Both the position numbers and the translations under genes were made by a program. This document shows positions 33,909 through 38,549 of a stretch of DNA of 38,549 nucleotides, one piece after another; position 1 is the first letter of the stretch; every line of letters starts with the position of its first letter. The notes under the pieces were generated by a model. The model did not search any database. It saw nothing but the letters and a program-made list of their open reading frames with translations, and was not told the origin of the DNA. This DNA comes from Clostridia bacterium (GTDB lineage: Bacteria; Bacillota; Clostridia; Oscillospirales; CAG-272). The stretch spans positions 1 to 38,549 of the forward strand of contig JAFTKO010000010.1 of assembly GCA_017453205.1 (NCBI GenBank), written 5' to 3'.

Positions 33909-34194
33909 GTTCAAACTTCTGCAAAGTTTGAAAGCAATTTCAAAAAACGCTCTTTTTCACCTTACGGTAGACAAAAGGCTGCCATCACTTGAAACAAACA
34001 ATTTAAAGGGATCCCGAAAGGCTCCCCCAAAATTTATTTTTTCTTGCAATTTTTATCAAACGCAGGATTGATGGCATAAAAATTTTTGCTGTCCAAATGA
34101 TCCTGTGTGATACGGAGTGCATCACCGATATTACTCTTTCAAACAATCTCTGTTTTACCTTATGCCTTATCAATTTTTGCGCGTTTGTATGGGA
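33909..34194 (-). pseudogene. Gene remnants downstream of the decayed Rhs fragment
   Basis: No intact gene. Two short minus-strand stretches read like protein C-termini in different frames: 34160-34216 (GYVWLIPYKRAKIDKA) and 34034-34138 (GDALRITQDHLDSKNFYAI), each closed by a stop. They may be what is left of a toxin tip or immunity gene that followed the orphan Rhs core. A weak GC-rich hairpin (34008-34028) follows on the minus strand. The family is not recognised. Confidence 0.35.
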
Positions 34195-34740
34195 TCAACC
34201 AAACATAACCGTCCCGTCACTGCAATAAACGCTACAATTCTCCAAGACGCAATTATTCCGGCCCCCCCGAAACACATATGAAACGATCACGGTTACGGAT
34301 TTCGGAATTTGGTAACCATAGTAACGGAACGGGTTATAGCTTTGCACAATGCTATTCTCCAGCGTTGTGTTTCCGCTTGTAACGCTTGTAGTGCATACGC
34401 CCCAAGCATCATAGATATAACCACCTATCTTGGTTCCGCTTGCGTTGTAAACCGCAATAATATCTCCTTGCAGGTTCTTTTCAAAGAAGAAGTAATCATA
34501 CTCATTGGCGGCATACGCATTGGTACGGTACTTTAGTCCCATGGGGAAACCGTTTTCGTCATACAGATATACCAGTGTATACACCACGCTACCCGACTTC
34601 CAACGCTCTCCCATAACTTGACTACCATTGAGCGGATACTCATGCTTAACGCCGTCCACGGTTTTGCTTGTACGGATACCATCGACATTGTACGTAAATG
34701 CTATGTAGAAATAAAAATAACCAAGCTTGTCCTGTACCAT
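34195..34740 (-). pseudogene. Orphan Rhs core fragment, truncated (copy 3)
   Basis: A frame of 181 codons whose residues about 14-140 are Rhs/YD-repeat core, nearly identical to the copy at 35305 (only two differing residues between VVYTLVYLYDENG and NPFRY). It breaks off after NPFRYYGY, where intact copies continue into the LYYLQSRYYNPxWGRF signature, and ends in about 40 unrelated residues. A run of seven G at 34261-34267 (C on plus) marks a possible frameshift. Unlike the second copy it has a start ATG with AAGGAGGTGACAT ahead, so a truncated product could be made. Confidence 0.7.
34321..34701 (-). repeat. Rhs core direct repeat, copy 3
   Basis: DNA matching 35998-36267 and part of 38039-38420 with few base changes. 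It begins at the GTAACGGAACGGG block and ends near GTACGTAAATGC. Confidence 0.8.
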
Positions 34741-34763
34741 ATGTCACCTCCTTGATAAAAGTA

Positions 34764-34813
34764 ACAGACAAGTTTTTTTCTCGGAGGCACCGAAAGCCAA
34801 CATTCGGTGCCTC
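34764..34813. repeat. Cassette-junction element, copy A
   Basis: ACAGACAAGTTTTTTT (34764 on) followed by an 11-bp perfect hairpin GAGGCACCGAA/TTCGGTGCCTC (34784-34813). The same block recurs at 36276-36332, again between an immunity-type gene and the next Rhs fragment. On the minus strand the hairpin is followed by A-rich, not T-rich, sequence, so it is not a usual terminator. Confidence 0.6.
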
Positions 34814-34827
34814 AATAATATTAACAA

Positions 34828-35289
34828 TTAAAAATCACTTTTCTTTGATGAAAGAAGTTCGCCTAACAAATTAAAATTTTTATAAAATGATGCATTCAAT
34901 CGATTTTCACTAGGAATATGAAGTTCTTTCATCTTTGCAACAATCAAACTCGCCGTCTCAAAAAGAACTTGTTTTAATTCTGAAAACGTGATTTTTTCTA
35001 AAAAAGCATTTTCAAAAATTCCGTCCTCTTTATTTCCACTGATAATAACCCAATCTTCTTTTTTTTCAAGTAACAAATAATAAGGACCTTCCATAAAATG
35101 AACAGAAAAAGCCGCATTGCAACAATCATTATTGTCTATTACTTCTGAAATCCAATAATTCAATATTGACAAAGAAAAATCATTCCAAAGTTTATATGGA
35201 AAAAATTTTTCCCCAGATTTGATATAAAACATTCCAAAATCAACCTTCTGTATACTATTATACAAATCAATATCACAATATATTTTCAT
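34828..35289 (-). CDS. Putative immunity protein for the Rhs tip at 35305
   Basis: A protein of 153 residues, AT-rich DNA, no signal peptide, family not recognised. It opens MKIYCDIDLYNSIQKVDFGM and has an acidic/aromatic middle. It starts 15 bp after the stop of a toxin-tipped Rhs fragment with AAAGGAAA ahead, which is where immunity genes of polymorphic toxins lie. The cytoplasmic location fits neutralising an intracellular RNase-like toxin. Function is inferred from position only. Confidence 0.65.
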   Translation of the reverse strand: MKIYCDIDLYNSIQKVDFGMFYIKSGEKFFPYKLWNDFSLSILNYWISEVIDNNDCCNAAFSVHFMEGPYYLLLEKKEDWVIISGNKEDGIFENAFLEKITFSELKQVLFETASLIVAKMKELHIPSENRLNASFYKNFNLLGELLSSKKSDF

Positions 35290-35304
35290 TTGAAATTTCC
35301 TTTC

Positions 35305-36318
35305 TTATTTAGGAAAAGCGGTTTTTATTAGATTTTCAGCATAATCATACCAAATTCTAATTTTCTGCCCATCAACCAATCCTTCAAAATAGTATCTTGA
35401 TTCTTGAATCTTTATAACTGTATTAGGATAATTTTGAACCGCATAATCATAGCCTTTTCTTACAAGTTCTTCGATAAAAGGAGCTGTCATCCAACCTGGA
35501 AATTTATCTTTATTAGGTCCTTTACCACCACTAGGATGATGATTTTCCATTATATGATCCATATCAATATCAACATCTTCACTATTTGGAAAAGGATTTT
35601 TTTCAGAAAGACGTGGTTTGGAATATACGGAATTTTTTATTGATTTAGCTGACTGAATTGAGTCAACCAACTGTTTGGTTGCCAAAGCAGATTCAACTGC
35701 TACAGCTCCCGCCAAAATCACATAGCCGCCAATATATATAATTTCACCAACTATTGTAGGCTCAGTAGATGCCACCGGTAAACCAATTGAAGTCCACCAT
35801 TTCAATGCTTCCGTTGCACTCTCTCCATAGGGATCAATAAACCGTACAGGATTATTATTACAATAAGCAAATAAATTAAAGCCAAACAAATTGTTGTAAA
35901 AAGCCCCATCTGCATTAACAAACCTACCCCAGTAGGGATTATAATATCTACTTTGCAGATAATACCAACCGGATTGAGTGTCACAATAGTACCCACGGTA
36001 ACGGAACGGATTGTAGCTTTGCACAATGCTATTCTCCAACGTAGTATTTCCACTTGTAACGCTTGTAGTGCATACGCCCCAAGCATCATAGATATAACCA
36101 CCTATCTTGGTTCCGCTTTCATCGTAGACCGCAATAATATCGCCTTGCAGGTTCTTTTCAAAGAAGAAGTAATCATACTCATTGGCGGCATACGCATTGG
36201 TACGGTACTTTAGTCCCATGGGGAAACCGTTTTCGTCATACAGATATACCAGTGTATATACCACGCTTGAAAGCGACAGACAAGTTTTTCGTTTCTTCTC
36301 AGAGGCACCGAAAGTCAA
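35305..36318 (-). CDS. Orphan Rhs C-terminal module with BECR-type RNase-like tip (copy 2)
   Basis: The frame encodes an Rhs core from about residue 19 (VVYTLVYLYDENG) to RYYNPYWGRFVNADG and NPVRFIDPYGES. A membrane-like stretch follows, then a tip of about 110 residues with DMDHIMENHHPSGGKG, FPGWMT and a final IRIWYDYAENLIKTAFPK. An N-terminal His block and a closing I-x-T-A-F/Y-P are seen in BECR-fold RNase toxins (EndoU/barnase-like), so that is the best guess. The 5' end has no usable start: the only candidate, TTG at 36318, lies inside the junction hairpin and the homologous part begins at 36267. It looks like a displaced tip, silent until recombined. Confidence 0.7.
   Translation of the reverse strand: MTFGASEKKRKTCLSLSSVVYTLVYLYDENGFPMGLKYRTNAYAANEYDYFFFEKNLQGDIIAVYDESGTKIGGYIYDAWGVCTTSVTSGNTTLENSIVQSYNPFRYRGYYCDTQSGWYYLQSRYYNPYWGRFVNADGAFYNNLFGFNLFAYCNNNPVRFIDPYGESATEALKWWTSIGLPVASTEPTIVGEIIYIGGYVILAGAVAVESALATKQLVDSIQSAKSIKNSVYSKPRLSEKNPFPNSEDVDIDMDHIMENHHPSGGKGPNKDKFPGWMTAPFIEELVRKGYDYAVQNYPNTVIKIQESRYYFEGLVDGQKIRIWYDYAENLIKTAFPK
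35998..36267 (-). repeat. Rhs core direct repeat, copy 2
   Basis: Nearly identical to 34321-34590 and similar to 38039-38310. Homology stops abruptly at 36267 (CACGCTT) next to the junction element. Confidence 0.8.
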
Positions 36319-36332
36319 CCATTCGATGCCTC
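36276..36332. repeat. Cassette-junction element, copy B
   Basis: ACAGACAAGTTTTT (36276-36289) and hairpin GAGGCACCGAA/TTCGATGCCTC (36302-36332, one mismatch), the second copy of the element at 34764-34813. Confidence 0.6.
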
Positions 36333-36441
36333 CGAAAAAATGAGATTGAAATGTGTGTTTAAAACCAATCAGAAAAACTCGGATTTAATATTACCTACAA
36401 ATAGAAATTATAGGCGCTCTGTTAATTATAAATAAAAAGAT

Positions 36442-37290
36442 TTAATTGATATGAAAGCCAAAAAGAATTTGAAAATTATTATCAAAATATATCAAAGCAG
36501 CAGCTTCACTATTCAAATCATAATACTCAATTCTCCAGTATCCCGTTAGAATATCATCCGCTACATAAGCATCAAAGCCTTGATATCCAAGAGCGGTACC
36601 GCCATTTAGAATCATTTCTTCCATACTTTCTGCAGTATATGATTCCATGGTGAAAAAATCACCTTCTTTTGGCTCACAATCCAAGCACCAAAATCTTTCA
36701 TACCGGAATGAGAAATTCCAATGATATTTACCAATACTGTTATCATCACTCTTTATCAATTCTTCCCTAAAAGCATCGGCTTTTCCCCAAAAGAATTTAG
36801 TATCTGAATAAATACCGCTTTGTGAAAATATTTCCCCAATTTCATTTTTTAAATAATCAGAGGATTCTACCAAATAAATCTTTTCATCTTGAAATAAAAA
36901 CACCTCTTTTGTATCAAACGAATACGCTAAAGCAAATAGAACCGAAACATCTTCTATACTGCCATTCTGCACAATTGAATAATATTCACTTTCATCAACC
37001 GCGATTACCATTTCATAATCATACTTTCTGCTATTAAAAGAAGTTTCTTTTAATAACAACTTTTCGTCATTTAAAATGTCAGTAATATCACTCAATTGGC
37101 ACCTTGCATCTGATCCTCCGGTAATTTGAGAACAGTTTGGTACGCCGGCGGGATCATAATAAACAAGAACGCCGGAAAGCAAAAGAACAGTTTCGTCTCC
37201 TTTGGTAACTTCTTTTGATACGCAAGCACATAAAGAACCAACCAAAGATAAAACAATTAGTAAACAAAGTAACCGATGTTTAATTTCCAC
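36442..37290 (-). CDS. Lipoprotein, putative immunity partner of the Rhs tip at 37280
   Basis: A protein of 282 residues. A signal peptide MEIKHRLLCLLIVLSLVGSL ends in a lipobox (LCAC), with Cys23 probably lipidated. The mature part is acidic and aromatic and of no family I recognise. It starts at GTG, overlapping the last 11 bp of the Rhs gene, with AAAGGAG 12 bp ahead. This tight overlap suggests co-expression with the toxin tip. An immunity lipoprotein would act at the outer membrane face; this role is inferred from context. DNA is AT-rich. Confidence 0.7.
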   Translation of the reverse strand: MEIKHRLLCLLIVLSLVGSLCACVSKEVTKGDETVLLLSGVLVYYDPAGVPNCSQITGGSDARCQLSDITDILNDEKLLLKETSFNSRKYDYEMVIAVDESEYYSIVQNGSIEDVSVLFALAYSFDTKEVFLFQDEKIYLVESSDYLKNEIGEIFSQSGIYSDTKFFWGKADAFREELIKSDDNSIGKYHWNFSFRYERFWCLDCEPKEGDFFTMESYTAESMEEMILNGGTALGYQGFDAYVADDILTGYWRIEYYDLNSEAAALIYFDNNFQILFGFHIN

Positions 37291-38549
37291 TGTAGAACTT
37301 CACTCCTTTCCCAAAACTAAAATCATACTTAAATACATGATAGTTAGCAGTAGAATTCGGAATTGTTCTACCTAATACCATAACATAAAAGTTGCTACAA
37401 ACACCCTTTTGACTGTCAGCAAGTATACTCTTAATATCCTTACCTGAAAAACCACCATTAGCTTCTCTGCTGTCATTATCAACATGAATATGGGCAATTG
37501 AAATTATTGTTACACAATCCCATGGTATAGTTACATTGTTAGGATTCCAATCAGAGGTTGAACCTGGAGTAACAACAGAGGTCCAATAATAATCGGAACT
37601 TTCACCATATTTATTTCCTTCATTGTATTGATAAATTATAAATCCATATTCCCTGTCAAAACCAGCATCCTTGGCAGTATTGTATAAATTTTCAAATCCA
37701 GCAATTGCAGCCTCAGCTTCGGTAGCCGATTTTATGTATCCTCTATCTTCCGAATATTTATTTTCATACACAGTTGAGGAAACCGGAGCAGATGAACTCT
37801 CACAAGATGTCATACATAATAGACCTGCTCCAATTACAACAAAGAGCCACGGAAAATCCCCTGTCGGGTCTACCAACATCACCGGATTATTATTACAATA
37901 TGCAAACATATTGTAGCCTAACAATCCAGTACCCGTAGAAACATACCCATCCGCACTGATAAATCTGCCCCAAGTGGGATTGTAGTAACGGCTTTGCAGG
38001 TAGTACAGACCTGTTTGTGTATCATAATAATATCCACGGTAACGGAACGGGTTGTAGTCTCGCACAATACTATTCTCCAGCGTTGTGTTTCCACTTATAA
38101 CGCTTGTAGTGCATACACCCCAAGCATCATAAATGTAACTACCTATTTTTGTTCCGCTTTCATCGTAGACCGCAATAATATCGCCTTGCAGGTTCTTTTC
38201 AAAGAAGAAATAGTCATACTCATTGGCGGCATACGAATTGGTACGGTATTTCAGCCCCATCGGTGAACCATTCTCATCGTATAAATAGATTAATGTATAC
38301 TTTACACCGCCCGATGTCCAACGTTCTCCCAAAATCTGACTACCGTTGAGCAAATACTCATGCTTGATACCATCCACAGTTTTGCTCGTGCGGATACCAT
38401 CGGCATTGTACGTAAATGTGAGCGTTGTGCTCATATCATAATACCGACCGTTTCCGTCACCCTCGTCAAGGAACCCACGATACTCCATCAATTGTCTACC
38501 CTGCCACTCCAACTCGGTTCCTGCCATGTAATAACCGGCACCGTCTAAG
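37280..38549 (-). CDS. Rhs/YD-repeat protein, C-terminal part, with JAMM/MPN-like tip (partial)
   Basis: The gene runs off the right edge; the frame is open to the last base and the ATG at 38527 is internal. The visible part holds YD repeats (FTYNADGIRTSKTVDG), the Rhs core end GLYYLQSRYYNPTWGRFISADG and NPVMLVDPTGDFPW, then a short hydrophobic stretch. A tip of about 150 residues follows, with SIAHIHVDNDSREANGGFSGKD (His-x-His at 37484-37492, Ser and Asp at 37436-37447). His-x-His followed by Ser-xx-Asp is the JAMM/MPN metalloprotease zinc pattern, also seen in DUF4329-type Rhs tips. A secreted or wall-associated polymorphic toxin is likely. Confidence 0.82.
   Translation of the reverse strand, partial: LDGAGYYMAGTELEWQGRQLMEYRGFLDEGDGNGRYYDMSTTLTFTYNADGIRTSKTVDGIKHEYLLNGSQILGERWTSGGVKYTLIYLYDENGSPMGLKYRTNSYAANEYDYFFFEKNLQGDIIAVYDESGTKIGSYIYDAWGVCTTSVISGNTTLENSIVRDYNPFRYRGYYYDTQTGLYYLQSRYYNPTWGRFISADGYVSTGTGLLGYNMFAYCNNNPVMLVDPTGDFPWLFVVIGAGLLCMTSCESSSAPVSSTVYENKYSEDRGYIKSATEAEAAIAGFENLYNTAKDAGFDREYGFIIYQYNEGNKYGESSDYYWTSVVTPGSTSDWNPNNVTIPWDCVTIISIAHIHVDNDSREANGGFSGKDIKSILADSQKGVCSNFYVMVLGRTIPNSTANYHVFKYDFSFGKGVKFYSGN
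37980..38549 (-). repeat. Rhs core direct repeat, copy 1 (parent gene)
   Basis: The longest copy, continuous with the rest of the Rhs gene beyond the window. It is more diverged from copies 2 and 3 than those are from each other. Confidence 0.75.

Follow-up and report, generated by a model that had tools for sequence, protein, structure and literature searches.

The analysed stretch of DNA, here called the window, is the entire contig C1 (38,549 nt) of a Clostridia assembly that comprises 2.29 Mb in 44 contigs and is 73% complete. Within positions 34195–38548 it carries three Rhs core ends, all on the minus strand. Read from the contig end, the order is copy 1 with tip 1, partner gene 1, a hairpin, copy 2 with tip 2, partner gene 2, a second hairpin and copy 3:

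37280..38548, minus strand: copy 1, Rhs core end plus predicted toxin tip, 422 aa, 5' side open at the contig end (ORF list; TIGR03696, E = 7e-21)
37283..37780, minus strand: tip 1, which weakly matches DUF4329 (named Tox-JAB-2 by Zhang 2012; E = 2.1e-4, 21.7 bits)
36442..37290, minus strand: 282-aa partner gene 1, immunity-type, with a lipobox-like start (ORF list)
36302..36332, minus strand: hairpin at the junction to copy 2, with GAGAAGAAACGAAAAACTTGTCTG between it and the core; lacks a T-run (131-nt fold, z = -4.4)
35818..36270, minus strand: copy 2 core, read as displaced, 80% identity to copy 1 (TIGR03696, E = 1.2e-18)
35305..35811, minus strand: tip 2, unassigned to any family (ORF 35305–36318; ORF list, profile searches)
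34828..35289, minus strand: 153-aa partner gene 2, immunity-type; no signal seen at the N-terminus (ORF list)
34784..34813, minus strand: hairpin at the junction to copy 3, with CGAGAAAAAAACTTGTCTG next to it; lacks a T-run (111-nt fold, z = -4.1)
34195..34740, minus strand: copy 3, truncated core plus 41 unrelated residues after NPFRY (ORF list, core alignment)

Three core ends, two tips

A 300-nt direct repeat was found at 34313, 35990 and 38031, with 89% and 84% identity of the second and third occurrences to the one at 34313; its length and identity rule out chance. Together with the base-level alignment, this repeat confirms the claim of the first-pass annotation that three Rhs core ends follow each other on one strand, and the ORF list agrees with its placement of an immunity-type gene ahead of copy 2 (36442–37290) and of copy 3 (34828–35289). 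Copies 1 and 2 scored 74.5 and 67.3 bits against Rhs_assc_core (TIGR03696, cut-off 32.5 bits), while no match to this model was listed for the truncated copy 3.

The annotation had further described an Rhs gene with an intact tip. The ORF of tip 1 is indeed intact, but the gene itself is cut by the contig end at 38549. Since the contig ends inside copy 1, we can only infer a full-length first gene; its large repeat body and export signal, both present in relatives, would lie beyond the contig. Using the 1,836-aa full-length Rhs body of a relative as query, we obtained no match in the window's 73%-complete assembly. The head of the array is thus unseen, and copy 1 could itself be a displaced orphan. 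A second, divergent Rhs piece of 249 aa occurs in the same genome near the end of contig C24 (L006, 3982–4731) and shares 39% identity with copy 1.

Three unrelated tips had also been proposed, of which two were recovered: those of copies 1 and 2 are unrelated to each other, whereas copy 3 is tipless. Its core match stops near 34303–34312, and 41 unrelated residues lead from NPFRY to the stop at 34195. Copy 2 shows the arrangement of an orphan module, that is, a core fragment homologous to that of the main gene, an unrelated tip and then its own partner gene (34828–35289), a putative immunity gene by its position; copy 3 does not show it.

Tips and partner genes

Searches of Pfam, PHROGs, NCBIfam and PADLOC with tip 1 returned the DUF4329 match alone, which at 21.7 bits is below the Pfam cut-off of 28.6, and a PDB sequence search gave no match. 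In the translation an H-I-H motif precedes S-x2-D, an order known from JAB peptidases and given for Tox-JAB domains by Zhang 2012 (PMC3482391). Partner 1, whose ORF overlaps that of tip 1 by 11 nt, had no match in Pfam, NCBIfam, PADLOC or PHROGs. By these features the pair resembles a Tox-JAB-like peptidase with a lipoprotein partner. The weak Tox-JAB-2 match and the lipobox recall Imm65, the partner of Tox-JAB-1 and the only lipoprotein immunity protein in the set described by Zhang 2012 (PMC3482391); unlike this system, however, tip 1 points to Tox-JAB-2, with which Imm65 does not pair, and partner 1 falls outside the Pfam families.

Tip 2 matched nothing convincing in Pfam, PHROGs, NCBIfam or PADLOC; the sole PDB sequence match, a designed helix bundle, was rejected as chance. 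Judged by eye, it may resemble small nuclease tips. AlphaFold single-sequence models used in tip assignment were poor, with mean pLDDT values of 32.8 and 45.6. Partner 2 had one relative among 97 other genomes searched (29% identity, in G056), and no Rhs piece was noticed within the 3.3 kb seen around it. Neither tip had a relative among 393 other genomes of the order; tip 2 had none in plasmids or viral contigs either.

Divergence of the cores

Alignment of the three cores base by base, from VVYTLVY to NPFRY, confirmed that exactly 2 of 89 residues separate copies 2 and 3, with 12 of 267 nt changed. The distance from copy 1 is 38 nt and 8 residues for copy 2, and 40 nt and 10 residues for copy 3. 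Synonymous divergence (dS) was 0.20 between copies 2 and 3 and about 0.79 between copy 1 and either of them; dN was 0.01–0.06 among the three copies and 0.05–0.06 for copy 1 versus copies 2 and 3. With 10 synonymous against 2 nonsynonymous changes, copies 2 and 3 depart from neutrality (P = 8e-6, in a test that ignores transition bias). Across loci, 20 of 21 neighbouring orphan-core pairs showed the same synonymous excess (P < 0.01 each; pairs with fewer than 5 changes or 40 codons were omitted), and the cores therefore parted while under selection. This pattern fits a divergence of the cores inside working genes before displacement, although conversion from an active gene would look similar, as it would likewise leave the cores synonymous-rich.

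Among 45 informative sites, 33 unite copies 2 and 3, seven unite copies 1 and 2, and five unite copies 1 and 3. The latter two classes are partly clustered, which may hint at conversion. About 170 nt of core, between spacer and core, are present in copy 3 and absent from copy 2. In another locus, L067 (13426–14917), two orphan cores in different cassettes have one internal deletion in common, and since they share it, copying or conversion also acts on displaced cores at times.

One could explain the locus by tandem duplication and decay of a single gene end in place, with no exchange with other strains. Such a history would account for the identical order and strand of the copies, for the hairpin and spacer common to copies 2 and 3 (81% identity over 63 nt) and for the deletion common to the L067 orphans. 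But it leaves the unrelated tips of copies 1 and 2 unaccounted for, and the divergence of copy 1 from copies 2 and 3 (high dS, low dN) speaks for selection rather than for silent copies. We consider duplication in place very unlikely.

Copies 2 and 3 might instead be small expressed genes with a job of their own, for instance in toxin-antitoxin-like regulation, and not stored spares. An orphan Rhs is described to act in this way in Salmonella (PMC7043789), and a strong ribosome-binding sequence, AAGGAGGTGA (34745–34755), precedes the ATG of copy 3, setting this copy apart from typical silent orphans. Yet copy 3 has neither a toxin domain nor a partner gene behind it, the ORF list containing no minus-strand ORF of at least 60 aa between its stop at 34195 and position 33924; copy 2 begins within the core, without a clear in-frame ATG plus ribosome-binding site. 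A role of this kind appears highly improbable to us.

Rhs arrays in relatives

The copy-1 query matched 20 of 60 genomes, including the window's own. A scan with one genome per species confirmed 455 stretches, of which the best 80 were kept, representing 76 loci; nearly all are titled Clostridia, Oscillospiraceae or Lachnospiraceae MAGs, many of them from ruminant gut. Two or more core pieces were present in 44 of 88 distinct Rhs loci (the window counted in, seven duplicates of other records dropped), a proportion that is no population estimate, as the loci were picked for similarity to the window. At 13 of these 88 loci shorter core pieces come after an ORF that is 1,800 residues or longer, and relatives show the full pattern: a full-length Rhs gene, its partner gene and then cassettes of core, tip and partner. 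The longest series that we describe, L083 (6335–20356), contains eight Rhs core pieces with shortening ORFs and T-run hairpins repeated at several junctions. At L109 (1675–14085), an element of ~150–200 nt occurs in about ten copies around and beyond the Rhs array. Eight contigs from viral collections (L154–L161) encode relatives of the Rhs core. A closed genome, G044 (L046), was unhelpful as a control, its Rhs pieces being interrupted by transposase-like genes, as judged by eye.

Among 133 partner slots in relatives, a rough script found a lipobox-like start in 19 and another N-terminal hydrophobic segment in 53. Lipobox or N-terminal membrane segments were seen in many partners, among them those of L035, L038, L040, L091 and L098, suggesting toxins that may act on the envelope, or immunity at the cell surface.

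The arrays in relatives also bear on an artefact of assembly, by which separate full-length Rhs genes were collapsed or joined in the MAG; a split of the copies by assembly error was the alternative considered in the first-pass annotation. Contigs often stop within Rhs cores, and the window's does so too. Its copies are separated by different partner genes and hairpins, however, and similar arrays recur in MAGs of other projects, which makes an artefact extremely unlikely.

Shared tips and cassettes

Comparing 134 tips, we found 12 pairs that match to the C-terminal end between a full-length gene and a short gene in another locus; in 6 of the 12, the short member is at array position 2 or later. 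Two loci from other MAGs, L074 and L079, share a stretch that runs from one core through its tip and partner into the next core (1717 of 1785 columns, 96% identity), and the 160 residues of the common tip are identical. Identity drops to 53 of 97 in the remainder of the next core, and the tips that follow are unrelated. This breakpoint inside a core is what exchange through core homology predicts. The left edge of the match is uninformative: the L074 contig extends 66 nt beyond it, and the L079 core differs there. No tip switch was seen in the window's species, and with no relative of tip 1 or tip 2 among the 393 other genomes of the order, a swap of the window's own tips could not be demonstrated.

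Junction hairpins

The exact pattern of the window's hairpins, a feature absent from the first-pass annotation, occurred at just two places in the 2.29-Mb assembly, namely its two cassette junctions. Intrinsic terminators combine a GC-rich stem with a T-run, and both hairpins are devoid of a T-run on the cassette strand. An Rfam match at the copy-2 hairpin was dismissed as chance (E = 0.16). In 34 further genomes of the genus, the window's hairpin turned up in G009 alone, twice at an Rhs cassette and once, terminator-like, behind an unrelated gene. Array hairpins of their own were found in G005 (five places) and G019 (four), all within Rhs arrays, and in G029, with three places in its array and one elsewhere, in G030, where a T-run follows. 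In five genomes of the genus, 16 of 18 places are within Rhs arrays, for patterns that were designed from the arrays themselves; the other two resemble ordinary terminators. Between copies of the G019 hairpin, the stem is altered on both sides with pairing kept. One unit in G005 is bounded by hairpins and has no core. A unit between two array hairpins at L066 (14396–15132) contains a lipoprotein-like gene and no Rhs core. In L083 and L101, T-run terminators take the place of array hairpins.

Hairpin k-mers were in common in 10 of 19 within-array pairs versus 20 of 722 pairs between arrays. Junctions had strong hairpins modestly more often than other gene ends did (28 of 93 versus 155 of ~888, P = 0.005), a ratio that is approximate since the 155 were counted under a slightly stricter edge rule than the 888. 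The 93 junctions are tblastn block starts, and some of these, such as those of pieces within L038 and L088, do not mark a real join between cassettes. T-runs accompanied strong hairpins about equally often in both classes (10 of 28 versus 64 of 155, P = 0.68). Seven loci repeating other records were left out of the junction, tip-pair and orphan-core counts.

These gene-end controls weaken the idea of hairpins as a general mark of exchange. Given the modest excess and the equal frequency of T-runs, the plainest reading is that the hairpins are terminators, or remnants of them, at the end of each partner gene. The part left unexplained by terminators is the array-specific reuse. An array-specific hairpin might be a functional boundary at which cassettes are cut, copied or circularised; we regard this as unlikely, and an unsystematic look noticed no recombinase beside the window's array.

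Discussion

We conclude that the window very probably holds the 3' end of an Rhs polymorphic-toxin locus after C-terminal displacement. Incoming pairs of tip and partner would recombine into the conserved core of the large Rhs gene and push the earlier tip and its partner downstream. Copy 2 would then be a tip that was displaced along with its partner gene and is probably silent, and copy 3 an older displaced core, presumably also silent, that has lost its tip. Copy 1 would be the end of a full-length gene whose product is presumably exported through Sec, the tips and partners acting as putative toxins and immunity proteins. Recombination between the cores of copies 1 and 2 could join tip 2 to the main gene.

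Both displacement and orphan modules are already well documented in Proteobacteria (PMC2935791, PMC3150448, PMC3967940) and for WapA of Streptococcus suis (PMC12704120). Dissociated tips were reported for enterobacterial rhs loci by Jackson 2009 (PMC2935791), where, as here, strings of core fragments that vary in length and bear unrelated tips lie downstream of an rhs gene; displacement via core homology and circular intermediates was proposed. In contrast to these loci, the host here belongs to the Clostridia and the junctions carry hairpins, while the main text of Jackson 2009 (PMC2935791) makes no mention of hairpin, palindrom, terminator or Firmicutes. In addition, full-length Rhs proteins of relatives have a signal-like segment at their start, whereas enterobacterial rhs genes are described with a T6SS beside the gene.

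With the orphan rhs-CT/rhsI and cdiA-CT/cdiI modules (Poole 2011, PMC3150448; Koskiniemi 2014, PMC3967940), the arrays have in common pairs of tip and partner without export signals, orphan tips akin to tips of full-length proteins elsewhere, and an orphan tip that recombination could load onto the main gene. Activity, immunity and recombination were demonstrated experimentally in those systems and are predicted from sequence here. The closest parallel among Gram-positives is S. suis, where an Rhs/WapA gene is followed by truncated copies with other pairs of tip and partner, named Rhs orphans (PMC12704120, 2025); these belong to Bacilli and their tips and partners were tested, while our locus is clostridial and known from its sequence. 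The orphan-module layout that the first-pass annotation recognised therefore holds, and its full pattern is present in relatives, but it comprises two tips only and was already known in Firmicutes through S. suis WapA. In the open-access literature we found no paper on tandem orphan Rhs genes with immunity genes in Clostridia, and among the matches listed there none dealt with hairpins or palindromes at orphan cassettes; array-specific junction hairpins are possibly new.

Our findings extend displaced Rhs tip arrays to Clostridia of the ruminant gut, where such arrays look common and long, reaching eight core pieces in L083. They offer a natural data set on how tips move. If hairpins do act in exchange, they would provide a testable step that the displacement model of 2009 left open.
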